Source: Salinirussus salinus
GTDB lineage: Archaea; Halobacteriota; Halobacteria; Halobacteriales; Haloarculaceae
NCBI RefSeq assembly: GCF_009831455.1
Contig: NZ_WOWO01000002.1
Span: forward strand, 310,001 to 374,000
Direction of reading: 5' to 3'
Length of the DNA: 64,000 bases
This document shows, piece by piece, positions 37,708 to 49,856 of this stretch. Positions within the stretch are counted from its first letter, which is position 1. Each line of letters starts with the position of its first letter. Under the pieces are notes generated by a model. It searched no databases. It had not been told where the DNA came from and saw nothing but the letters and a program-made list of their open reading frames with translations. Made by a program: the position numbers and the translations under genes.

Positions 37708-38496
37708 TCAGGGGAGTGTCCCGACCCGGTCGGCCGTGTACCCGAAGACGTGTTCGTACCCCTCCGGGGACATCAACACCGGGTAGAACCCCTCCTCGGC
37801 GACGACGTCGACGCCGTCCGCGGCGGCGAAGGCCGTCCCCTCCGGGACCTCGGTGAAGTTGTCGGCGTACACCTCGTACTCGCTTGCGGCCTCCTTGGGG
37901 ACGGGGTCGCGCAGCCGGAACACCGGAAGCCCGTCGGCCGGCGGTCGCTCCGCCTCGGGGAGCACGCCGACCGCACCCAGAAACGCGCGAGCGACGCGGG
38001 TGGCGTTCGCGGCTGCGGTCTCCGAGCCCTGGTAGCCACACTCCACCTCGATGGTCCGCGGGATCGACTCGAACAACCGGCCGTCGGTTTCGGTCCCGGC
38101 GTCGACGACCGCGTCCACGCCCAGCCGCGGGCAGATGTGACGGGCGTAGTCGGTGATCCTGTCGACGATCGCGAACGGTTCGCCGTAGGACTGTGTGGAG
38201 TGCATCGAGAGTGCGGTGCAGTCGCCGAAGCGCTCGCCGATCTCGGCGGCGAGTCTCGACTCGTGAGTGTCGCCGCCGGGGTCGCCGGGAAACGCCCGGT
38301 TCAGGTCCTCCTCGAGGTACCGTTCGCCCGCCGCGAGTGCCTCCTCGTTGGCGACCACCAGCGCCACCGGCTTCTCGACGTCGGGGTCCTCCGCGAGCAG
38401 GTTCTCGACCGCCCGCATTCCGCAGGGCTCGTCGCCGTGGATGCTCCCGATGACGACGTACTCGGGGTCCCCATCACCGAGCTGTTCGACACGCAT
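37708..38496 (-). CDS. Succinylglutamate desuccinylase / aspartoacylase family protein
   Basis: A 262-residue zinc carboxypeptidase-fold protein. GSIHGDEPCG carries the first zinc ligands (His and Glu of HGxE), MHSTQSYGEP supplies the third histidine and IEVECGYQG the likely catalytic glutamate. A final beta-barrel domain ends with the FGYTADRVGTLP tail. Family members deacylate N-acyl amino acids or related amides; the substrate is not predictable. ATG 38496 is chosen because ACTAATAC (about 38520-38527, minus strand) lies at TATA distance; a GTG at 38511 would be the longer option. Confidence 0.86.
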   Translation of the reverse strand: MRVEQLGDGDPEYVVIGSIHGDEPCGMRAVENLLAEDPDVEKPVALVVANEEALAAGERYLEEDLNRAFPGDPGGDTHESRLAAEIGERFGDCTALSMHSTQSYGEPFAIVDRITDYARHICPRLGVDAVVDAGTETDGRLFESIPRTIEVECGYQGSETAAANATRVARAFLGAVGVLPEAERPPADGLPVFRLRDPVPKEAASEYEVYADNFTEVPEGTAFAAADGVDVVAEEGFYPVLMSPEGYEHVFGYTADRVGTLP

Positions 38497-38563
38497 CTGC
38501 GGGGCCTTCACGCCGGAGGAGTATTAGTGGGACGATCCGGAACCGTCTGACTCTCCGCGGCCG

Positions 38564-39556
38564 TCACTCCCCGCCCAGCGGGAGCTGGGTGATGTTCTCC
38601 AGAAAGCCCGCTCCCGGAACGTCGCCGTCCCGGGTCTGTCGGGCGGCGGCGCGGTTCAGCACCGCCCGCTGGTCGCGCTCCTCGTCGACCCAGTCCAGCG
38701 GCGTCGTCACAAACGGGCGCACCTCGATCGTCGTCGCCCCGCCCTCCCAGACGAGTTCGAGCTCCATGTCCGGGCTCGTCTCGCCTCTCATCCACTCCCG
38801 GGCGGTCTCGGGACCGAACGCGGGGGTCTCCGTCACTGTCGACCCGGTCAACGGAACTGCCCGCTCGCCGTCGTACCAGAACCCGTTGACCATCCGCTCT
38901 TCGGGGTGTTCTGCGAGCCAGAACGACAGGTGGTTGTAGGCGGTCCCGTCCTCGAAGGCTCCCGAAATCCAGAGCCACTCGGCGTCGCCGGCCCACTTCC
39001 GTCTCCCCCAGGAGTGGTCACGTTCCCCGACGCCAGCGAACGCGCGCTCGCGGCCGTCGACCGTAACCGTCCCCTCGACGTGTGTCGCCACCTCGTAGCG
39101 GTCGTTTCTGGGTTCGTCGGGAAACGTCTCCCCGTCGGAGTAGTAGAACGGGTCGTGGCGGCTGGTGAGCGTGCAGTCGACCGACAGTGTCGCCGGGTCA
39201 CCCTCGCCGGCGAGTAGCGCCGCAGGCTCGTCGGCCGGCGTGGCAGTCACCGTCCCCTCGACGCGTGCATTCCACTCGGCCGGCAGGTCAACGGGCAGGA
39301 GTTCGACCGTCCAGTCCTCGCCCCGGACGAGGAGGCCGTGGGTGTCACCGGGCGAAACGGCTCGCTCGCGGAGCCAGTAGACGGTCCCGTCCGCGATGAG
39401 ATAGAAGAACACGTTCGCCTGCTTTCGGTTCGGATAGAACCCGACCCGACCGTGCAGGGCGACGTCCTCCTCGGCGCCGATGGCGTCGAAGTAGTGACTC
39501 TCGCTCCAGTACGTCTCCGCTCCCGGTGCGTGGAAGAACTCGTCGGCCTCGCGCAT
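38564..39556 (-). CDS. AttH/DUF7064-like lipocalin-fold protein
   Basis: A 330-residue protein with mostly beta structure and a conserved GERDHSWGRRKWAGD motif in its centre, as in AttH / hydroxyneurosporene-synthase-like proteins and the actinobacterial DUF7064/7065 group. Those relatives are often encoded beside phosphotransferase-family genes, exactly as here. They are suspected to bind or act on hydrophobic ligands. ATG 39556 is favoured by a CTATCAATG element on the minus strand about 28 bp upstream; ATG 39580 is the longer alternative. The exact family name is uncertain. Confidence 0.68.
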   Translation of the reverse strand: MREADEFFHAPGAETYWSESHYFDAIGAEEDVALHGRVGFYPNRKQANVFFYLIADGTVYWLRERAVSPGDTHGLLVRGEDWTVELLPVDLPAEWNARVEGTVTATPADEPAALLAGEGDPATLSVDCTLTSRHDPFYYSDGETFPDEPRNDRYEVATHVEGTVTVDGRERAFAGVGERDHSWGRRKWAGDAEWLWISGAFEDGTAYNHLSFWLAEHPEERMVNGFWYDGERAVPLTGSTVTETPAFGPETAREWMRGETSPDMELELVWEGGATTIEVRPFVTTPLDWVDEERDQRAVLNRAAARQTRDGDVPGAGFLENITQLPLGGE

Positions 39557-39579
39557 ACGGTGTCCAACCGGTGCATACA

Positions 39580-39591
39580 TTGATAGGTATT
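39580..39591. promoter_or_regulatory. Overlapping back-to-back TATA elements
   Basis: The short AT-rich segment TTGATAGGTATT reads CTATCAATG on one strand (for ATG 39556) and GATAGGTATT on the other (for ATG 39614). The two predicted leaderless starts are only 58 bp apart, so the two promoters share bases. Confidence 0.45.
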
Positions 39592-39613
39592 GCGTCGTTC
39601 GTTCTCACACATC

Positions 39614-40732
39614 ATGACAACAGATAGCATGGCTGTCGACGAGCACGCGCTTCGCTCGTCGCTCTCCAGCGAGCTGGGCGCTGCGGATTCTTGCTCGCTC
39701 GAGCCCCTGGAGGGTGGAAACGCCAACGAGACCAGTCTGCTCCAGTGGGACGAACAGGAGTTCGTCGTCCGCCGGGTGCCGCCGGCGGAGCCCGCCCCGG
39801 AACTACTCCACGACCTGGACCGGGAGTACCGGGTCCTGGACGCCCTCGAGGAGACGTGGGTCCCCACACCGGACGTCGTGACGTACTGTGACGACGAGAC
39901 CGTTCTGGGCGAGGAGTTCTACGTGATGGAGCGGCTGGAGGGGGAGGTCTTCGACACGCAGCCCCCGGCCCGGTTCCGTTCGCCGGAGACGCGACAGACG
40001 GTCGGGGAACAGACTGTCGACAGACTGGCGCAGATCCACCACATCGATGCCGACCGGGTCGGCCTGAGTGACCTGGGGGACCCGGCAGGCCACACGGAGC
40101 AGCTGGTCGAGAAACTCACGGCTCAACTGGAGTGGGCACAGCAGCGGACGGGCGAGACGCGGGAGCTGCCCGTCTGTTTCGAGGTGGCTGACTGGCTCGC
40201 CGACAACGTTCCGCCAGCACCGCACGCGACGCTCGTCCACGGCGACTACAAGCTGGACAACCTCCTGTTCGGTATTCCCGACGCTCCCCGGATCACCGGC
40301 GTACTGGACTGGGAGATGGCGACCCGCGGCGACCCCCTGACCGACCTCGGGTGGGTGCTTTCCTACTGGGCGGAGGCAGAGGACCCGTCGCCGATCACCG
40401 ACGGCATCGAGGCGGCCTACGGCGACCACGAGCAGTTCCCGGTCCTGGAGGTGTTCGTCGAGGAGTACTCGGCGTTCATGACTCACCCGGAGTATCACAG
40501 CCGACAGGAGTTGGTCGACCGCTACGAGAGACAGACCGGCATCGAATACGACCACGACCGGTTCTACCGCGCCCTCGGCGCGTTCAAGCTCGCGGCACTT
40601 TGCGAGGGGTTCTATCGCATGTATCTGGAGGACGCGCCAAACGTGAAGGAGTCGTACCCTGCGATGGAGCTCATCGTCCCGGCGCTGGGCCGAAAGGCGC
40701 GCCAGATCATCGAGGGCGAGGTCCCGCTCTGA
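39614..40732 (+). CDS. Aminoglycoside-phosphotransferase-fold (APH family) protein
   Basis: A 372-residue kinase-like protein of the phosphotransferase family that includes ACAD10/11-type N domains. The Brenner motif VHGDYKLDNLLF supplies the catalytic Asp, the metal-binding ITGVLDWEMATRGDPLTDLGW follows, and NANETSLLQW lies at the nucleotide loop. Such proteins phosphorylate hydroxyacyl-CoA, sugars or antibiotics; resistance should not be assumed. It is divergent from the AttH-like gene, a pairing also known in actinobacteria. ATG 39614 fits the TATA spacing; ATG 39629 is possible. Confidence 0.83.
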   Translation: MTTDSMAVDEHALRSSLSSELGAADSCSLEPLEGGNANETSLLQWDEQEFVVRRVPPAEPAPELLHDLDREYRVLDALEETWVPTPDVVTYCDDETVLGEEFYVMERLEGEVFDTQPPARFRSPETRQTVGEQTVDRLAQIHHIDADRVGLSDLGDPAGHTEQLVEKLTAQLEWAQQRTGETRELPVCFEVADWLADNVPPAPHATLVHGDYKLDNLLFGIPDAPRITGVLDWEMATRGDPLTDLGWVLSYWAEAEDPSPITDGIEAAYGDHEQFPVLEVFVEEYSAFMTHPEYHSRQELVDRYERQTGIEYDHDRFYRALGAFKLAALCEGFYRMYLEDAPNVKESYPAMELIVPALGRKARQIIEGEVPL

Positions 40733-40742
40733 GGGCGTCGAC

Positions 40743-41414
40743 TCACGCCAGCTCCCTCAGCGTCTCCAGCTCTCCCTCGTAGGATTCGGGGTAGTGGGGG
40801 CCGTTCAACCGCGAGTCGACCTCGCCGTCGAGTACGAACAGCGTAGTCGGTGCCCCCGCCACGTCGAACTCCTCGTAGAGCAGTTCGGCCCAGGCCGGGC
40901 CGTAGACCGCGAACAGCGCGATGTCCTCCGGAGCATCGAGGAGGTCCTCGAGAGTCTCGCGAACGAGGTCACACGGCTCGCAGTCCTCCTGCCAGACGTA
41001 CACCACAGCCCGGCGGGTCAGCCCCAGCAGCGTGGGAAGCTGTTCGCCCCCGACCGGGAGAAACGGGTCGGGAACCCCCGCCGACCTCGGCGGCGTCCCC
41101 TGGAACTGTGCGAGGACGGCAACCGTCCGGACGAGGTCGTCGTGTGAGAGCGACTCTACCCGCTCGGCGAGCGCACAGTACTGGGCGACAAAGCGGAGGT
41201 CATCCTCGCCGAGTGCCGCGAGCGCGTCGAGAGCGTCGGGGTCGTCAAACCGCGCCTCGAGCTCCTCACGGAGAGACTCCCGACGCTCCAGGGTCGTCTC
41301 CGTTTCCTCCACCAACTCCTGGAACTCCGCAGTGACGGCGACTGACTCGCCGCCGGCTGTCGGCTCCAGCACGCCGGTCCCGACCAGCGTGTCCAGTAGC
41401 TCGTCTGGCTGCAT
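40743..41414 (-). CDS. Thioredoxin-fold protein with CEPC motif
   Basis: A 223-residue protein. The first 120 residues are an acidic helical domain; the thioredoxin-like half begins RRAVVYVWQEDCEPCDLV, giving a CxxC redox pair, with the cis-proline loop VAGAPTTLFVLDG further on. It is soluble and has no signal. It may be a cytoplasmic disulfide reductant. GTATTTATACA, a clear TATA box, lies about 28 bp before ATG 41414. It is convergent with the APH-family gene, separated by 10 bp. Confidence 0.83.
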   Translation of the reverse strand: MQPDELLDTLVGTGVLEPTAGGESVAVTAEFQELVEETETTLERRESLREELEARFDDPDALDALAALGEDDLRFVAQYCALAERVESLSHDDLVRTVAVLAQFQGTPPRSAGVPDPFLPVGGEQLPTLLGLTRRAVVYVWQEDCEPCDLVRETLEDLLDAPEDIALFAVYGPAWAELLYEEFDVAGAPTTLFVLDGEVDSRLNGPHYPESYEGELETLRELA

Positions 41415-41496: not shown

Positions 41497-42483
41497 TCAG
41501 TCCTCCCCGACGGTGATCCGGGGGTCAACCACACTGTAGAAGATGTCGACCGCGAAGTTGGCCACCACGACCAGCGCCGCGATGACGAAGAAGACGAACT
41601 GGATGACCGGGAAGTCCCGCGCCCGGATCGCCTCGATGATCGTGAGCCCGAGTCCCGGCCAGTTGAACACGAGTTCGATGAGCACGAGGCCGCTCACCGC
41701 CTGCACGATCGAGATCGGGAACAGCGTCATCAGCGGGAGGACGGCGTGTCGGCCCAGGTGTCTGACTCGCCTGACGTAGGGCAGGCCGGTCACCTTCTGG
41801 TAGTACGCGAAGTCTTGGCCCATGACTTCCACGTAGCTGGTCCGCATGATCAGCGTCGGCCCGTACATGTACCGGATCGCGACGACGGAGACCGGCAGGA
41901 TCCAGTGATAGAGGAAGTCGAGTGTCAGGTACTTGCGCCACCAGACGTCGAACCGGAGTTGCGTCGCTGTCGAAACCATGTCTCCCGTCGGGAAGATCCC
42001 CAGCCAGACCGACAGGACGACGATCGCGAGGATGGCGGTGAAAAAGCCCGGGAACGACCCGACCAGCGTGACCAGCGTCACCGCCGACCGCTCCAGACGC
42101 GAGCCCCGTTTGTCCCCGATGAAGCTCCCGACGACGCCGCCGAGCACGTAGGCGAGGAGCAGGCCCGGCAGTGCCAGGATCAGCGTGTTGACCATCCGGG
42201 GCCTGACGTAGTCCCAGACGGGGAGTCGCGTCTGGAGGGACGTTCCCACGTCCAGCATCAGGAAGTTCGTGAGGTAGTTCCAGTACTGGACGTAGAGCGG
42301 GTCGTTGAGCCCCCAGCTCTCCCGCAGCTCGGCCACGGCCTCGGGAGACGCCCCCTGATTGAGCATCAGTGTCGTGTAGTCACCGGGCATGAGCCGGAAG
42401 AAGAAAAACAGGAACGTGAGGATCACCCACAGCAGGAAGACGGTCCTGAGGCTCCGCATCAGCAGGTATCGAACTCTGCTCAT
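41497..42483 (-). CDS. Dipeptide/oligopeptide-type ABC transporter permease (DppB-like)
   Basis: A 328-residue membrane protein with six helices. After the first helix (RTVFLLWVILTFLFFFFRL) and a large extracytoplasmic loop come the permease core and the coupling loop with a YQKVTGLPYVRRVRHLGRHAVLPL block, then the typical end VDIFYSVVDPRITVG. It is the last gene of the transcript binding protein - DppC - DppB. ATG 42483 is supported by the MSRVRYLLMRSL start typical of the family. Confidence 0.88.
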   Translation of the reverse strand: MSRVRYLLMRSLRTVFLLWVILTFLFFFFRLMPGDYTTLMLNQGASPEAVAELRESWGLNDPLYVQYWNYLTNFLMLDVGTSLQTRLPVWDYVRPRMVNTLILALPGLLLAYVLGGVVGSFIGDKRGSRLERSAVTLVTLVGSFPGFFTAILAIVVLSVWLGIFPTGDMVSTATQLRFDVWWRKYLTLDFLYHWILPVSVVAIRYMYGPTLIMRTSYVEVMGQDFAYYQKVTGLPYVRRVRHLGRHAVLPLMTLFPISIVQAVSGLVLIELVFNWPGLGLTIIEAIRARDFPVIQFVFFVIAALVVVANFAVDIFYSVVDPRITVGED

Positions 42484-42573: not shown

Positions 42574-43488
42574 TCAGACACCCCCGGTGGCCTGGTCCGC
42601 ACTCTCGAACGACCGGCCGATCAGGTACGTCGACAGCACGGTGAAGGCGATCATGAACCCGGGGACCAGCGCCCACGCCCAGGCCTGTCGGAGATACCCC
42701 GAGAAGTACGCGTTCCGGATCATGACACCCCACGAGGGCGTCTGTGCGTCGGCGACTCCGACGAACGCGAGCGACGCCTGGGCGATGATGGCCACGCCGA
42801 TCCCCAGTGCGAAGTAGAGGATCGCCATCGGGGCGACGTTCGGGAGGATGTGTTTCAAGACGATCCGTCTGGAACTCGCGCCCGACGCTTTCGAAGCCTG
42901 GATGTACGGCCGTTCCTTGATCTGGAGGACCTGTGCGCGTATCACGCGGGCGTTCGAGCGCCACAGCAAGATCCCGATGATGAAGATGGCGATCCAGAAG
43001 CCGGCCCCGAAGAACGCGACGACGACGAGCGCGAACGGGATGAACGGGATCGCGAAAAACAGGTCGGTGATGCGCATCAGCGTCTCGTCGACGACTCCGC
43101 CCAGGTAACCGGACAGGAGGGCGACTGTCAGTCCGATGGAGACGATCATCGTCCCGCCGACCACGCCGGCGATCGCGGTGGGACGGGCGCCGACGATGAT
43201 GCGCGACAGAACGTCGTACCCGTCGCCGGTGGTCCCCAGCGGATGGGCCACGCTGGGTGGTTCGGCCAGCATGATCCCACCGTCGGGGGCGATGAGCCGT
43301 TCGTCGTACCCGTACGGGGCCAGCGACTCGCCAAACAGCGCGAGGATCGCGACGAGCGTGAGAAAGAACAGGGGGATCCGCGTGATGTTCTGTGAGAGCA
43401 ACCCCCGGATCCCGGCGACCGTGTTCCGGACGACGATGTTGTTCTTCCGAAGCGACTTGATCCGATTCAGGGGACGTTGGAATGACAT
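42574..43488 (-). CDS. Dipeptide/oligopeptide-type ABC transporter permease (DppC-like)
   Basis: A 304-residue membrane protein. It has an N-terminal helix (IPLFFLTLVAILALFG), the HPLGTTGDGYDVLSRIIVGA signature of DppC/OppC, about five further helices, and the coupling loop with YIQASKASGASSRRIVLKHILPN. It is 113 bp after the binding-protein gene and 90 bp before the DppB-like gene with no promoter visible in either gap, so all three should share an mRNA. Confidence 0.89.
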   Translation of the reverse strand: MSFQRPLNRIKSLRKNNIVVRNTVAGIRGLLSQNITRIPLFFLTLVAILALFGESLAPYGYDERLIAPDGGIMLAEPPSVAHPLGTTGDGYDVLSRIIVGARPTAIAGVVGGTMIVSIGLTVALLSGYLGGVVDETLMRITDLFFAIPFIPFALVVVAFFGAGFWIAIFIIGILLWRSNARVIRAQVLQIKERPYIQASKASGASSRRIVLKHILPNVAPMAILYFALGIGVAIIAQASLAFVGVADAQTPSWGVMIRNAYFSGYLRQAWAWALVPGFMIAFTVLSTYLIGRSFESADQATGGV

Positions 43489-43601: not shown

Positions 43602-45461
43602 TCACGCGGTGTACTCATCGATGTCGATGGGGAGGTCCACCTCGTCGTCCGGCGGCCGGGTGTAGTTGCCCTCGCTGTCGAGACAGGGGTAGTTGTCGGG
43701 GTCGGGAGTCCCCTCGGCCTCCCAGCGCGGCGAGAGGTCCGCGTCCTGGGGGTAGTGGAGGTTCCCGTCGTTGTCCCATCCCCACCCCTCCTCGCGCAGC
43801 CGCTCCCTGGCTGCCTCCATGTCGCCGCTCACGCTCCCGTTGCCCTGTTCGTAGAGCATCTCGTTCGGTGCGCGTCGCGGGTGAGACGGCGAGGTCGTCT
43901 CCGCGTAGATGTCGGGCTCCCGCTCGCCGAGCGTGGTCAGCGCCTCGATCTCCTGGTAGTTGATCGCCATCGCCACGGCCTCGCGGAACTCGAAGAACTT
44001 CGTCGGCGCCATCGGCCACTGTGGGATGAGGATCAGTGCCACGGTGCTCTCCCCGGGTGCGATGCTCAGCTGGTCGCTGAACTGCTCTCTGATCTGTTCG
44101 CGCTGTGGCGGTGACGTGATGCCCGCGTGGATGTCGCCGGACCGGAGCGCGGAGAACAGCGACGTCTGGTCGGTAAAGACGTTGAACGAGAGGTTTGCGT
44201 CCGGATGCGGGTCGAACTCGTGGTGGTCGGTGTACGGCTCGGCCGTGAGTCCCTCGCCGGAGGTGAAGCTAGTGAGCTGGAACGGGCCGCTCCCGACCAT
44301 GTCCTCGGGGGCCGGCCGGGCGTTCTCGGCGTCTTCCGGCGCGCCGGCGTCGACCCACGTGTCGCGGTGGAGGATCCCCCAGGTGTGGAAATCCCGGGTA
44401 ACGAGCGGTGCGAACGGCTCGTCGAGCTGGAAGCGGGCGGTGGTGTCGTCGACGGCCTCGACTGTCATCCCGACGTTGGGTGCGTCGAGGAAGACATCCG
44501 TGTTGCCGGCGAGGTACTCGAAGGAGAATTTGACGTCCTCGGCGGTGACCTGGTCGCCGTTGTGGAACGTGGCGTCGTCGACCAGATTGACGGTGTACTC
44601 GAGCCCGTCGTCGCTGGCCTCGACTGACTCCGCCAGGTCGCTGTTCATGAACCCGGATTCCTCGTTGTTGACGTCCACGTAGAACAGCTTCGAGTGGATC
44701 AGATTGTTCCAGGGACCGACCTGGTCCTGGTTGGAGTAGATGTTGGTGTCGTTGTAGTAGTGGGTCTGGTTGTCGGCGATCTCGATGAACTCGCTGTCGC
44801 CGACCGGCTCCATCGTCTCGTAGAGCCGGACGTTCTGCGGAAAGAACGTCCCGGTACCGATCTGGTTCTCGTCTATCTGTACGTCACTGGGTCTGTACGC
44901 CCACGTGTTGTCGAAGGGTAAGCCGAGATTGATGACCGCGAGGTCGTTGCTCCGGATGCTCTGTGCTTCGTGGAGCACCTCCGTCCGGCGTTCCTGGTCG
45001 GGGATCTTCCGCTGTTCGCGCATCAACACGCTGTAGGCGCAGTTGGGCCACTGACTGACGTTCCCGCCGGGGTTACCCGCCAGGTCGATGGTGTACCGCT
45101 CCCAGGCGACCGTCCCGTCCTGGGTGTTGCTGATGTAGTAGATCGGCATACTCGAGAACCGGTTGTCGCTGAAGACGTTCCCGACGGCGGTCGCGACATC
45201 CAGGGCGGCTATCTCGACGTCGACACCGAGGCGTTCCGGCATCTGCTGACTGAGCGCCTCGGCAGCACTCTCCATCTGGTACCACCCGGTGTAGTGTTGC
45301 ATCGTCTGTGTCGGGACGCGCTCACCGAGGTCTTCCGCCCCGCCTCCTCCACCGTCGCTGCCGAGGATCCCACAGCCTGCGAGTCCCATGGCACCGGCTG
45401 CACTCAGGCTACTGAGCAACGTTCGTCGGTTGATACCATGGCTCTCGTCACTCTGTGACAT
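43602..45461 (-). CDS. Peptide/nickel-type ABC transporter substrate-binding lipoprotein, apparently circularly permuted
   Basis: A 619-residue lipoprotein of the SBP_bac_5 family. A Tat-like INRRTLL motif and lipobox GLAGC (Cys30) open it. The order of the ligand-binding parts is not normal. Residues 50-192 match what is usually the C-terminal end (LGVDVEIAALDVATAV, then the EAQSIRSNDLAVINL block and AYRP). Residues 214-317 match the usual N terminus (DLAESVEASDDGLEYTV, FHNGDQVTAEDVKFSFEYL), and the protein finishes with the usual middle (FREAVAMAINYQEI, EEGWGWDNDGNLHYP). ATG 45461 fits a minus-strand ACCATTATCC element about 29 bp upstream. Confidence 0.84.
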   Translation of the reverse strand: MSQSDESHGINRRTLLSSLSAAGAMGLAGCGILGSDGGGGGAEDLGERVPTQTMQHYTGWYQMESAAEALSQQMPERLGVDVEIAALDVATAVGNVFSDNRFSSMPIYYISNTQDGTVAWERYTIDLAGNPGGNVSQWPNCAYSVLMREQRKIPDQERRTEVLHEAQSIRSNDLAVINLGLPFDNTWAYRPSDVQIDENQIGTGTFFPQNVRLYETMEPVGDSEFIEIADNQTHYYNDTNIYSNQDQVGPWNNLIHSKLFYVDVNNEESGFMNSDLAESVEASDDGLEYTVNLVDDATFHNGDQVTAEDVKFSFEYLAGNTDVFLDAPNVGMTVEAVDDTTARFQLDEPFAPLVTRDFHTWGILHRDTWVDAGAPEDAENARPAPEDMVGSGPFQLTSFTSGEGLTAEPYTDHHEFDPHPDANLSFNVFTDQTSLFSALRSGDIHAGITSPPQREQIREQFSDQLSIAPGESTVALILIPQWPMAPTKFFEFREAVAMAINYQEIEALTTLGEREPDIYAETTSPSHPRRAPNEMLYEQGNGSVSGDMEAARERLREEGWGWDNDGNLHYPQDADLSPRWEAEGTPDPDNYPCLDSEGNYTRPPDDEVDLPIDIDEYTA

Positions 45462-45932
45462 GATACACAACACCATGCAGTTGATGGATAATGGTTGAGA
45501 TACCGGATTTATTCTCCGCCTTCGTGTACCGCAGACGGCCCGGGAAGGGAAGGGTGCCGCAGGGCTACCGAACATGTCCACTTCGACCGTCACACCCCAC
45601 ACGTCTGTGACTCCACCAGCCCGTGGGAGACCTATGTTAACTACCCACAAAGCTTAATTCACTCACCTAAGAATGGGGTGTCATGTTACCCCACCAGCGA
45701 TGGAGTCGCCGTGGTCTGCCGTTTTCACGCGAGCGCGACCCTCCGAACGGCCGGACCTGGGATAGACAACACGCCCGCGGAGGGCCGAGCACGGACCGGA
45801 CGGCGTCGTGTTCGGGCGACATGTCTCGGGAGATGTCGGCGCCGGCCCCGATTCTCCGGCTCCTGTCCACCGTCTCGTCCCTGTTCGTCCGGACGGGTGG
45901 CCCCGAAGAGCGGGCCGGAGGGAGCGTCTGAG
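45462..45932. promoter_or_regulatory. 471 bp divergent region between the two halves of the peptide transporter
   Basis: No established gene lies here. Toward the binding protein, ACCATTATCC (near 45486-45495) is the likely TATA element. Toward the ATPases, CTTAATT (45654-45660) predicts a start near 45683, and GGATTTATT (about 45504-45512) is a weaker option. A hairpin TGGGGT(45674-45679)/ACCCCA(45688-45693) covers that start. The leader to the first ATPase is then about 250 nt. A frame at 45683-45931 (82 codons) exists but is basic and not called. Confidence 0.45.
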
Positions 45933-46967
45933 ATGGCTGAACCCGTACTCGAGGTCGAGGACCTCACGATCAAGTACCGCGTCGACGGCGGCTCGATCTC
46001 GGCGGTGACGGACGCGTCGTTCACCGTCGAAGAGGGAGACTACAACGGGCTGGTCGGTGAATCCGGGTGCGGAAAGTCGACGATCGCGAAGGCCATCGTC
46101 GGCGGGCTCGACGACAACGGGGAGGTCACCTCGGGGACGATCCGTTACAAGGGCACGGAGATCCAGGATATGTCCCAGCGGGAGCTCAACCGGGAGATCC
46201 GGTGGGACGAGATATCGCTGATCCCCCAGAGCGCGATGAACAGCCTCGACCCGGTCCGGAGGATCAGCACGCAGGCCGTCGAGCTCGCGCAGGTTCACAC
46301 GGACATGACCGAGGAGGAGGCACTCGACCGCCTGCGCGAGCTGTTCGGGATCGTCGGGCTCCAGGAGGAACGGGTCACGGACTACCCCTTCGAGTTCTCC
46401 GGCGGCATGCAACAGCGGGCAATCATCGCCTTCGCGTTGCTTCTGGACCCAGCGCTGATCATCGCCGACGAGCCGACCACGGCGCTCGACGTCATCATGC
46501 AGGACCAGGTGTTCGCGTACCTCGACAAGGTGCGTGAGGAGCTCTCGACGAGCATGCTGTTGATCACCCACGACATCAGCGTGGTACTCGAGAGCTGTGA
46601 CAACCTCGCCGTGATGCACGCCGGGCAGGTGGCTGAGACGGGGACGTCGGTCGACCTCTACGAGAACCCACACCATCCGTACTTCATCCTCCTGAAAGAC
46701 GCGTTTCCGGACATCCAGGCGCCCGACGAGCCGCTGTCTATCATCGAGGGGGACCCGCCCCAGCTACGGGGCGACGTCGACTACTGTACCTTCGTCGACC
46801 GGTGTCCGTGGGCCGTCGAAGAGTGTCGACAGGGGATGCCCGACCTCGAACCTGTCGACGCGAACTCCCCCGACCACCTGGCCTCCTGTATCCGGAAGGA
46901 CGAGGACCTGAACGCGGAGTATCTCGCCGACGACGTCGGTGCTGTCAGGGGTGAGGGCGATGACTGA
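45933..46967 (+). CDS. Oligopeptide ABC transporter ATP-binding protein (DppD-like)
   Basis: A 344-residue ABC ATPase. Walker A is GESGCGKSTI, the Q-loop is SLIPQSAMNSLDP, the signature is FSGGMQQRAIIA and Walker B is LIIADEPTTALD. The C-terminal oligopeptide-transporter domain has the usual Cys-rich end (YCTFVDRCPWAVEEC ... ASC). The ATG at 45933 starts the family's MAEPVLEVEDLTIKY; the open frame before it lacks coding character. The following ATPase overlaps it by 8 bp. Confidence 0.91.
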   Translation: MAEPVLEVEDLTIKYRVDGGSISAVTDASFTVEEGDYNGLVGESGCGKSTIAKAIVGGLDDNGEVTSGTIRYKGTEIQDMSQRELNREIRWDEISLIPQSAMNSLDPVRRISTQAVELAQVHTDMTEEEALDRLRELFGIVGLQEERVTDYPFEFSGGMQQRAIIAFALLLDPALIIADEPTTALDVIMQDQVFAYLDKVREELSTSMLLITHDISVVLESCDNLAVMHAGQVAETGTSVDLYENPHHPYFILLKDAFPDIQAPDEPLSIIEGDPPQLRGDVDYCTFVDRCPWAVEECRQGMPDLEPVDANSPDHLASCIRKDEDLNAEYLADDVGAVRGEGDD

Positions 46968-48009
46968 GGGCGAGCCCCTGCTTGAAGTGGAGAACCTGGA
47001 GAAGTACTTCGAGCAGACCGGGGGGATCCTCGACAGGCTTCGGGGGAACGTCGACCACGTCCAGGCTGTCGACGGCGTCTCGATGACACTGCGCGAGAAC
47101 GAGTCACAGGCCGTGATCGGGGAGAGCGGCTGCGGGAAGACCACGCTCATCAAGACCCTGATGGGGCTGCAGGACCACACCGGTGGCACCATCCGGTTCA
47201 GAGGCACCGAGTTCTCGTCGTTCACCAAGTCGGACTGGCGGGAGTTCAGGCGCAACGTCCAGATCATCTTCCAGGACCCGTTCAACTCCCTGGACCCGAA
47301 GTTCACCGTCCGGGAGACGGTCCGTGAGCCCCTCGAGATCCACGACTTCGACGACAAGGAAGAGCGGGTCAAGCAGATGCTTCGCGAGGTGCAGCTCAAC
47401 CCTCCCGAACGGTACCTCGACCAGCTCCCGGACCAGCTCAGCGGCGGGGAGAAACAGCGAGTGTCGATCGCGCGCGCACTCATCGTCGAGCCGGACATCG
47501 TCATGGCCGACGAGCCGGTCTCGATGCTCGACGTCTCGACGCAGGCGTCGATCCTCCAGTTGCTCAACGAACTTATCGACGAGATGGGCGTGTCGATGGT
47601 CTACATCTCACACGACCTCTCGACGGTGTCGTACGTCTCCGACTACGTCAACGTGATGTACCTCGGCCGCATCGTGGAGCGGGCGCCCACACTCCAGCTG
47701 ATCGAGGAACCGAAACACCCCTACACGGAGGCGCTCGTCCGGGCCATCCCCCGCCCGGACCCCTACTTCGACCGGGGCCGCGTCGACCTCGCGGGGAGCC
47801 CCGGAGACCCGGTCAACATCGGCCCGGGGTGTCGGTTCAGGGACCGGTGCCCGGAGCGCATGGACGTCTGCGAGAAGACGCCCCGATTTCTTGAGGTCGA
47901 AGACGACCACGCGACCGCGTGTCACCTCTACTACGACCACGAGGAGGGGGCGCCCGCGCCGGACACCTCGGACGCCCCGACGCAGGCGGCCACCGACCGG
48001 ATGGACTGA
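46960..48009 (+). CDS. Oligopeptide ABC transporter ATP-binding protein (DppF-like)
   Basis: A 349-residue ABC ATPase, the second subunit of the heterodimer. Walker A is GESGCGKTTL, the Q-loop is IIFQDPFNSLDP, the signature is LSGGEKQRVSIA and Walker B is IVMADEPVSMLD. The C-terminal Cys motif is GCRFRDRCPERMDVC ... ACH. ATG 46960 sits 8 bp inside the end of the DppD-like gene. The four membrane and binding subunits are encoded on the opposite strand across 471 bp. Confidence 0.91.
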   Translation: MTEGEPLLEVENLEKYFEQTGGILDRLRGNVDHVQAVDGVSMTLRENESQAVIGESGCGKTTLIKTLMGLQDHTGGTIRFRGTEFSSFTKSDWREFRRNVQIIFQDPFNSLDPKFTVRETVREPLEIHDFDDKEERVKQMLREVQLNPPERYLDQLPDQLSGGEKQRVSIARALIVEPDIVMADEPVSMLDVSTQASILQLLNELIDEMGVSMVYISHDLSTVSYVSDYVNVMYLGRIVERAPTLQLIEEPKHPYTEALVRAIPRPDPYFDRGRVDLAGSPGDPVNIGPGCRFRDRCPERMDVCEKTPRFLEVEDDHATACHLYYDHEEGAPAPDTSDAPTQAATDRMD

Positions 48010-48030: not shown

Positions 48031-49701
48031 TCACTCCTCGACGAGCCCCTCGCGCTTCCGGAGGTCCCTGCGCCGGACTTTCTCGGTGCTCGTGCGCGGG
48101 AGGTCGTCGAGGAACTCGATCTCGCGGGGGTACTCGTAGTTGGCCAGCCGGTCGCGGACGTACTCTTGCAGCCGCTCGCGCAGGTCCGCCGGGTCGTGGT
48201 TCCCGGCGGTGACGACGAAGGCTTTCGGGACCTGGCCGCGCTCGTCGTCGGGGACGCCGATGACGCCGACGTCGGCGACGGCGTCGTGGCCGGCCAGCGT
48301 CTCCTCGACCTCCTCGGGGCCGATCTTGTACCCCGAGGAGATGATCACGTCGTCGGTCCGCCCGACGAACTCGAAGTAGCCGTCCTCGTCGACGGTACCC
48401 AGGTCCTCCGTGAGCAGCCAGCCGTCCTGGACTTTCCGGGCGGTCTTCTCCGGACGCTCCCAGTACTCCTTGAAGCAGACGGGGTTGTCCTCGTAGCGGA
48501 CGGCGATCTCGCCGACTTCCCCCGGCTCCAGCCGCTCCCGGGTCCGCTCGTCGAGGATGGCTACCTCGTGGCCCGGCGCCGCAGGTCCCATCTTCCCATC
48601 TCTGTGCTCGATGAGTTCGGACCGCTCGGACACGAGCAGGTTCGCCTCCGTCTGCCCGTAGGCCTCCTCGACGGCGTCGATCCCGAACGTCTCGGCGGCC
48701 CAGGTCCGGATGCCCTCCCCCACGGACTCGCCGCCGGAGCCGATGGTTCGCAACTCGCCGAAGTCGTAGTCGGGGTTTTCGACCTGCATCATCATCCTGA
48801 GCGCCGTCGGCGGCGCGGAGAAGGAGGTGACGCCGTACTTCTCGAGAATGCGAAAGGCCTCGTGGGGGTCGAACTGGCCGCCGGCGTAGGCGACGACCGG
48901 CTGGCCGTAGTACAGCGTCGGCATCACCGCGGAGAACAGCGAGCCGATCCAGGACCACTCCACGGGCGTCCACGTGACTCGGTCCTCGGTGGTCCCGGTC
49001 CCGATGAATCCCGCGGCGGTGACCGGAAGGTGGCCGAGCAGGAAGCGGTGGACGTGGCGGACGCCCTTGGGCGGGCCGGTCGTCCCCGAGGTGTAGATGA
49101 TGATGGCGTCGTCCTCGGCGTGCGTGTCGAGGGTCTCGAACTCGCGGGAGGACTCCGCCATGGCCTCGTGGAGGTCCATCTCGCCGGGCTGCCGGTCGAC
49201 GTCGCCGAGCGTGAGGACCGTCTCCAGCGCCGGCAGGTCCGCCTCCCGGAGGGCGTCGATGTTCGCCTCCTCGACGACGCAGGCAACGGCGTCGCAGTCC
49301 CCGAGGCGGTGCTCGATCGCTTCGGGGCCGAACAAAAGCGACAGCGGCACCGACACCGCGCCCATCTTCCAGCAGGCGATGTGGGCCACGAGCGTTTCGG
49401 GTCGCTGATTGAGGTTCACGCCGACCCGGTCGCCGCGCTCGACGCCCGCCTCGGAGAGGTAGTTCGCCAGCCTGTTCGCTTCCTGCTGGAGCCGCCAGAA
49501 GGTGTACACTTCCTCGTTTCCGGCGGCATCCTCGGCGAAGACGGCTACCCGGCCCCGCTCGCTGGCCCACCGGTCGCAGGTGTAGGCGGCGATGTTGAAC
49601 CGCTCGGGAACCTCCCACTCGAAGGCCTCCCGCAGTTGCTCGTGGCTGTCCCAGTCCTGTTCGTAGAAGTGGTACGCGTCGAGGCGTTCCGTGGGAGCCA
49701 T
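48031..49701 (-). CDS. AMP-dependent acyl-CoA synthetase (acetate/medium-chain type)
   Basis: A 556-residue ANL ligase. The phosphate loop is IIYTSGTTGPPKGVRHVH, followed by TIGSGGESVG, EEAYGQTEANL, the hinge GRTDDVIISSGYKIGP and the catalytic-lysine end RTSTEKVRRRDLR. It belongs with the medium-chain or acetyl-CoA synthetase-like group, separate from the long-chain enzyme at 25.7 kb. The lysine before RRRD near the C terminus should be the acetylation-controlled catalytic residue. CTGTTAAGT (minus strand) lies about 28 bp before ATG 49701. It is convergent with the DppF-like gene. Confidence 0.88.
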   Translation of the reverse strand: MAPTERLDAYHFYEQDWDSHEQLREAFEWEVPERFNIAAYTCDRWASERGRVAVFAEDAAGNEEVYTFWRLQQEANRLANYLSEAGVERGDRVGVNLNQRPETLVAHIACWKMGAVSVPLSLLFGPEAIEHRLGDCDAVACVVEEANIDALREADLPALETVLTLGDVDRQPGEMDLHEAMAESSREFETLDTHAEDDAIIIYTSGTTGPPKGVRHVHRFLLGHLPVTAAGFIGTGTTEDRVTWTPVEWSWIGSLFSAVMPTLYYGQPVVAYAGGQFDPHEAFRILEKYGVTSFSAPPTALRMMMQVENPDYDFGELRTIGSGGESVGEGIRTWAAETFGIDAVEEAYGQTEANLLVSERSELIEHRDGKMGPAAPGHEVAILDERTRERLEPGEVGEIAVRYEDNPVCFKEYWERPEKTARKVQDGWLLTEDLGTVDEDGYFEFVGRTDDVIISSGYKIGPEEVEETLAGHDAVADVGVIGVPDDERGQVPKAFVVTAGNHDPADLRERLQEYVRDRLANYEYPREIEFLDDLPRTSTEKVRRRDLRKREGLVEE

Positions 49702-49856
49702 GCGCACACCATCTCCAACGGCCCACTTAACAGTTCATGCCCACCTTGGACCGGCGAGTGGGACCCTCCGGCGCGGCGACGGGGGAGGCGGTGTCAGTTC
49801 CCGGGTGTTCCGGCCGACCCGCAACACTGGTACACCCTCCGGTCCTACGGCCGGGT

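Follow-up and report, generated by a model that had tools for sequence, protein, structure and literature searches.

Does the binding protein encoded at positions 43602–45461 of this haloarchaeal DNA carry the two halves of its chain in the ordinary order? The window, by which we mean the whole stretch of 64,000 nucleotides that was analyzed, had been described in an earlier note as coding for a peptide-binding protein of an ABC transporter that looks circularly permuted. All the tests we ran support the permutation. The best overall explanation, to which we assign a probability of roughly 0.93, is that the gene encodes a permuted substrate-binding protein (SBP) of an importer, that the permutation had one main origin and a second elsewhere, and that a new C-terminal tail is probably held by a disulfide clasp.

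Results

The two halves of the chain are in reversed order

The gene is an unbroken reading frame on the minus strand, with its ATG at 45461 and its stop codon at 43602–43604 (Table 1). Pfam profile PF00496 matches the protein in two stretches, with 162 bits (E 2.9e-47) for the whole protein against a gathering cut-off of 32.4 bits. The best stretch, the only one that Pfam shows, places residues 274–568 on profile positions 4–286 of 368. A full-length profile was built from 19 ordinary SBP_bac_5 proteins. The window protein gives no single collinear N-to-C match to it; two blocks appear in reverse, profile positions 379–491 at residues 63–179 and then 85–366 at residues 264–563, which is the pattern by which the earlier note proposed to recognize a permutation. 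Each of the 19 ordinary proteins, which are also the profile's training set, gives one collinear match from end to end. The window protein shares with 13 homologues a succession of three profile blocks: the signal (about 3–45), about 366–520 and about 46–366. The signal of the window protein aligns with the profile's own at positions 3–42. The first of the two reversed blocks defines the B half, which starts with LGERVP; the second, together with the PF00496 stretch, defines the A half. The motifs quoted in the earlier note were all found in the order given: LGVDVEIAALD and HEAQSIRSNDLAVINL, then DLAESVEASDDGLEY and VTAEDVKFSFEYL, then FREAVAMAINYQEI and EEGWGWDNDGNLHYP. Residues 480–571 do not, as had been thought, close the protein; beyond residue 571 it continues in a conserved tail some 44 residues long.

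Table 1. Features of the binding-protein gene and its surroundings, in positions of the window
Feature	Position	Strand	Remarks
Permuted SBP_bac_5 binding protein gene, entire	43602..45461	-	619 aa plus stop
Tat-type (RR) signal peptide and lipobox LAGC, lipid-anchor Cys30	45372..45461	-	From sequence
B half (residues 45–224), equivalent to the C-terminal half in ordinary SBP_bac_5 proteins, here N-terminal	44790..45329	-	
A half (residues 225–575), equivalent to the N-terminal and middle regions in ordinary SBP_bac_5 proteins, here in second place	43737..44789	-	
C-terminal tail past the cut (residues 576–619), motif DLxPxWPxxxxPxxFPCL	43605..43736	-	From alignment
Cys141	45039..45041	-	Present in 28/28 subclade members
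Cys593, in the new tail	43683..43685	-	Candidate disulfide partner of Cys141
OppC/DppC-type permease, directly downstream	42574..43488	-	PF00528 E 2.2e-23; best NCBIfam match Opp4C, below cut-off
OppB/DppB-type permease	41497..42483	-	PF00528 E 2.4e-30, PF19300
OppD/DppD-type ATPase, divergent, start approximate	45930..46967	+	PF00005, PF08352
OppF/DppF-type ATPase	46960..48009	+	PF00005, PF08352; best NCBIfam match PRK11308, below cut-off
Thioredoxin-like protein, CEPC motif	40743..41414	-	33–44% identical proteins beside other subclade transporters

When the halves of the window protein are put back into the ordinary order, PF00496 matches in one stretch instead of two; it spans profile positions 4–339 and scores 172 bits. 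Rotation to the predicted junction raises the scores of two other proteins of the family, L014 and L072, by about 70 bits, and two ordinary proteins score highest when unrotated. The single-domain score of the window protein is almost unchanged by rotation, probably because the protein's extra tail blocks the join. A profile of the family also aligns with DppA in two reversed blocks, family positions 239–561 on DppA 9–339, which correspond to the A half, and 63–202 on DppA 354–487, which correspond to the B half. Among the 60 best matches listed when solved structures were searched with this profile, none has the permuted order.

An ordinary-order SBP might give a similar picture if an N-terminal extension resembled a C-half by chance or convergence, or if the true C-half had been lost. 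Taken alone, the window protein indeed gives a weak match to the C-half (20.5 bits against the ordinary profile), and Pfam does not detect the isolated C-half. The match becomes convincing through the family, however, as the block at the corresponding place scores 45–72 bits in relatives. In addition, the A half stops at ordinary profile position 364–366 with no C-half after it, and the swapped halves form one continuous PF00496 match. The profile matches in the family and the rotation test refute a chance resemblance or a lost C-half, and we consider either scarcely credible.

Homologues align collinearly with the entire chain. They have the two segments in the order opposite to that of ordinary members, with both termini re-sited, as in a circular permutation. 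As read from its sequence, the mature chain runs from signal to C-half to N-half, and the protein is a member of cluster C (the DppA/OppA/NikA type) that belongs to SBP_bac_5 by homology and not by topology. A single-sequence AlphaFold2 model of residues 45–601 had a pLDDT of 36, too low to show the fold.

The permuted family is widespread in haloarchaea

After removal of duplicates we collected 68 distinct permuted proteins with a common cut near profile position 365; the A half ends at position 363–368 in 63 of them. Homologues that are full-length and collinear, with 30–36% identity, are found in further genomes of the window organism's family, across many families of its order and on named plasmids of haloarchaea. 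An error of assembly, a frameshift or a mistake of gene calling could in principle mimic a permutation, and we found no point in support of one. The window reading frame is uninterrupted, and the architecture is common to the 68 proteins from independent genomes and plasmids; these independent genomes refute an artefact, the probability of which is negligible.

A survey of haloarchaeal homologues, proposed alongside the permutation claim, bears it out. We used a junction-crossing profile (A3), which permuted proteins match through the junction and ordinary ones on one side only, with at most about 90 bits. At E ≤ 1e-32, permuted proteins with the same reversed order are present in 149 of 293 Halobacteriales genomes and in 61 of 87 genera, and even the weakest of these matches, near E 1e-32, extend through the junction. 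None was found elsewhere in the phylum, outside Halobacteriales. In Alphaproteobacteria, about 10 of 289 genomes encode a permuted protein (match through the junction, E ≤ 7e-53), and four plasmid examples, from Roseomonas, Nitratireductor, Ketogulonicigenium and Maritalea, were checked by profile. A phylum-wide sample of Pseudomonadota contained no permuted protein, because the trait is sparse there.

Other matches were more distant. L093, from the alphaproteobacterial genome G859, is a divergent member: an open frame of 707 codons that matches the junction profile from end to end and has a C-half undetected by the ordinary profile. A match in the window organism's own genome (L003) was rejected as a relative, as it covers the signal peptide only. 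A search of genome contigs yielded nothing beyond distant half-matches; the ones that were checked by profile proved to be partial or of ordinary order. Searches of viral contigs found at most one distant ordinary relative.

The cut lies within lobe II

Residues 339 and 354 of DppA bracket the break, which lies inside domain III, a domain that spans roughly residues 261–478. Residue D408 of DppA, past the cut, belongs to domain III (PMC8566422), and domain III of EppA is one contiguous block flanked by two hinge strands (PMC7312458); the cut is thus placed inside lobe II/domain III. It is not at the natural lobe junction, where the earlier note had put it. A linker would join the former N and C termini, which both belong to lobe I, and the new termini would open in a lobe II loop that follows the helix ending ...LLxxAGY and precedes the first strand of the C-terminal half. 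The lipid anchor would in consequence sit on lobe II and no longer on lobe I. No evident lipobox is present in the alphaproteobacterial permuted members that were checked, so anchoring cannot be a general reason for the permutation.

The permutation arose at least twice

For tree building, all proteins were rewritten into the ordinary order. All permuted proteins but one, 67 of 68, fall into a single clade (SH-aLRT 99) in which haloarchaea and Alphaproteobacteria stand together, and transfer between the two groups is likely. The 68th, L083 (L148:8052-9722), comes from a Chloroflexota genome (G737). It has close relatives in its class, with 41–64% identity in each of the two halves; the 14 that were checked all have the ordinary order. 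Its operon is intact, on a contig of 1.85 Mb, and continues with two permeases and two ATPases (named from sequence). Around the cut, ordinary relatives of L083 read ...AKQLLADAGYPNGVGMPELKFQYADTA..., while L083 ends ...AKQLLAEGGYKV and its C-half starts PALKFQFSDTA. The cut of the window family lies in this loop too.

The identical cut point might suggest that the two origins are really one, with the Chloroflexota gene acquired from the main permuted clade or sharing its ancestry, and an earlier test that lacked the close relatives of L083 did not reject a single clade (p 0.60). Once these ordinary-order relatives are in the tree, however, L083 nests among them, the other permuted proteins group together with support of 99, and the AU test rejects a single origin (p 4.4e-36). 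L083 also keeps the ADYPDP motif of ordinary relatives (L079, for example), which the main clade does not have. Short of a misassembled contig, we regard a common origin as very unlikely; L083 is an independent and recent second event at the same loop. The permutation would have occurred once in the ancestor of the haloarchaeal and alphaproteobacterial family and again, independently, in a Chloroflexota lineage. Tandem duplication followed by loss of both ends is a plausible mutational route; no remnants or intermediates of such a duplication were found around the window gene or L083.

The permuted protein is encoded with a complete importer

Genes for a complete Opp/Dpp-type importer surround the gene, which itself specifies an RR signal and the LAGC lipobox: OppB- and OppC-like permeases lie downstream, and upstream, in divergent orientation, are OppD- and OppF-like ATPases. 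A permease and ATPase set accompanies nearly all annotated permuted relatives, the sole exception being an SBP that adjoins transposases. Based on this setting, the window protein would be the lipid-anchored SBP of a complete OppBCDF/DppBCDF-type ABC importer. The two-lobed clamp of the ordinary fold is expected; with the usual Venus-flytrap closing it would pass its ligand on to the permease. One could instead suppose that the permuted protein has turned into a sensor, as a partner of a haloarchaeal chemoreceptor, or into a scavenging lipoprotein, and is no transporter subunit; the permuted protein TpMglB-2 is treated as a likely chemoreceptor (Brautigam et al., PMC4990184). Yet the full permease and ATPase set adjoins the gene here and in almost every annotated relative, and there is no transducer gene among the annotated neighbors, which makes a sensor or scavenger improbable.

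The ligand is probably not a peptide

In DppA, D408 binds the amino group of the peptide (PMC8566422). Throughout the permuted clade the equivalent Asp has given way, in most proteins to an xxRxDP motif or a deletion; the window protein has NTQDG at this site. Loss of the D408-type Asp argues against peptides with a free amine. The label "peptide-binding" in the earlier note therefore does not hold up well, and, going by this site, the ligand is probably not a peptide.

Transporters of the window subclade have fumarylacetoacetate hydrolases, amidases, CoA-transferases and IclR regulators as neighbors, and our guess for their ligand is organic acids or amides. The bacterial permuted members lie beside M28/M20 peptidases and hydantoinase/oxoprolinases, and here we would guess cyclic or N-substituted amino acids. 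Within the window, an acyl-CoA synthetase (48031–49707, minus strand), an APH-type kinase (39590–40732, plus), an AstE/AspA-type hydrolase (37708–38511, minus) and a DUF7065 protein (38564–39580, minus) make up a catabolic-looking neighborhood. Four alphaproteobacterial members (L071, L072, L073 and L132) lie in conserved clusters with M28 and in some cases M20 peptidases and with hydantoinase/oxoprolinase genes; these clusters suggest a common cyclic-amide or N-substituted amino acid substrate.

A conserved cysteine pair in the window subclade

The window protein belongs to a subclade of 28 proteins, itself included, whose chains continue beyond the cut in a conserved tail (DLxPxWP...FPCL) that no other permuted subclade has. 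A cysteine in this tail and one at an NCEY motif in the C-half are both present in every subclade member (28/28), and neither occurs in any of the other 40 permuted proteins. Apart from the lipidated Cys30, the mature chain of the window protein has no cysteines besides Cys141 and Cys593. This co-occurrence suggests a Cys141–Cys593 disulfide clasp that would tie the new C terminus to the C-half.

The thioredoxin-like protein encoded nearby has no match in Pfam or NCBIfam and apparently represents an undescribed family. Counterparts at the identity given in Table 1 adjoin subclade transporters in 11 loci besides the window, and none was found in the loci of the other permuted groups that were examined, although many of the flanks examined were short. 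It has no evident signal peptide, and its first cysteine is lost in a relative, L128; a role in forming the disulfide is for both reasons only a lead.

Taken further, these observations lead to a tentative picture that we think is on balance unlikely to be right in full. The lobe II loop of cluster C SBPs would be a recurrent natural permutation site, cut at least twice; with anchor and termini on lobe II, the SBP would be shown to the permease from the other side; and in the window subclade the opened lobe would be closed again by the disulfide-clasped tail, possibly with the help of the thioredoxin-like neighbor.

Discussion

The permutation described here is widespread (in about half of the sampled haloarchaeal genomes), old, and repeated at one point of the chain. 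It can serve as a natural experiment that shows the influence of chain topology on fold, anchoring and docking, and the recurrent cut point is a candidate site for permuted or split cluster C biosensors. Databases label the permuted proteins plainly as substrate-binding, so that alignments and structure-based ligand predictions built on the usual order will mislead.

Compared with the SBP_bac_5/cluster C proteins DppA, OppA, NikA and EppA, the permuted proteins are homologous in both halves over almost the entire chain, have the same transporter partners, and carry a Tat/lipobox signal as in ordinary haloarchaeal members. They differ in that the halves are reversed, the termini lie in lobe II and not in lobe I, and the D408-type Asp is replaced; the window subclade also adds the cysteine-bearing C-terminal tail. 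L083 has the identical half order and loop cut, but it is of independent origin, is about 60% identical to ordinary-order SBPs and lacks the cysteine tail.

In the literature searched, largely without subscription papers, there was no precedent for a natural permutation in cluster C, and the only natural precedent found among ABC-transporter SBPs was TpMglB-2 (Tp0684) of Treponema pallidum, in cluster B. TpMglB-2 is a natural circular permutation termed 'Type Ic/Cluster Bc'; it binds ligand, changes conformation and is tethered at its N terminus, and the permutation has spread over its family (PMC4990184). The window protein resembles it as a naturally permuted SBP with an N-terminal tether and family-wide occurrence. 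In contrast, TpMglB-2 is bacterial, has the cluster B (sugar) fold, to which the window protein does not conform, being cluster C by PF00496, and is cut elsewhere, with three N-lobe strands moved.
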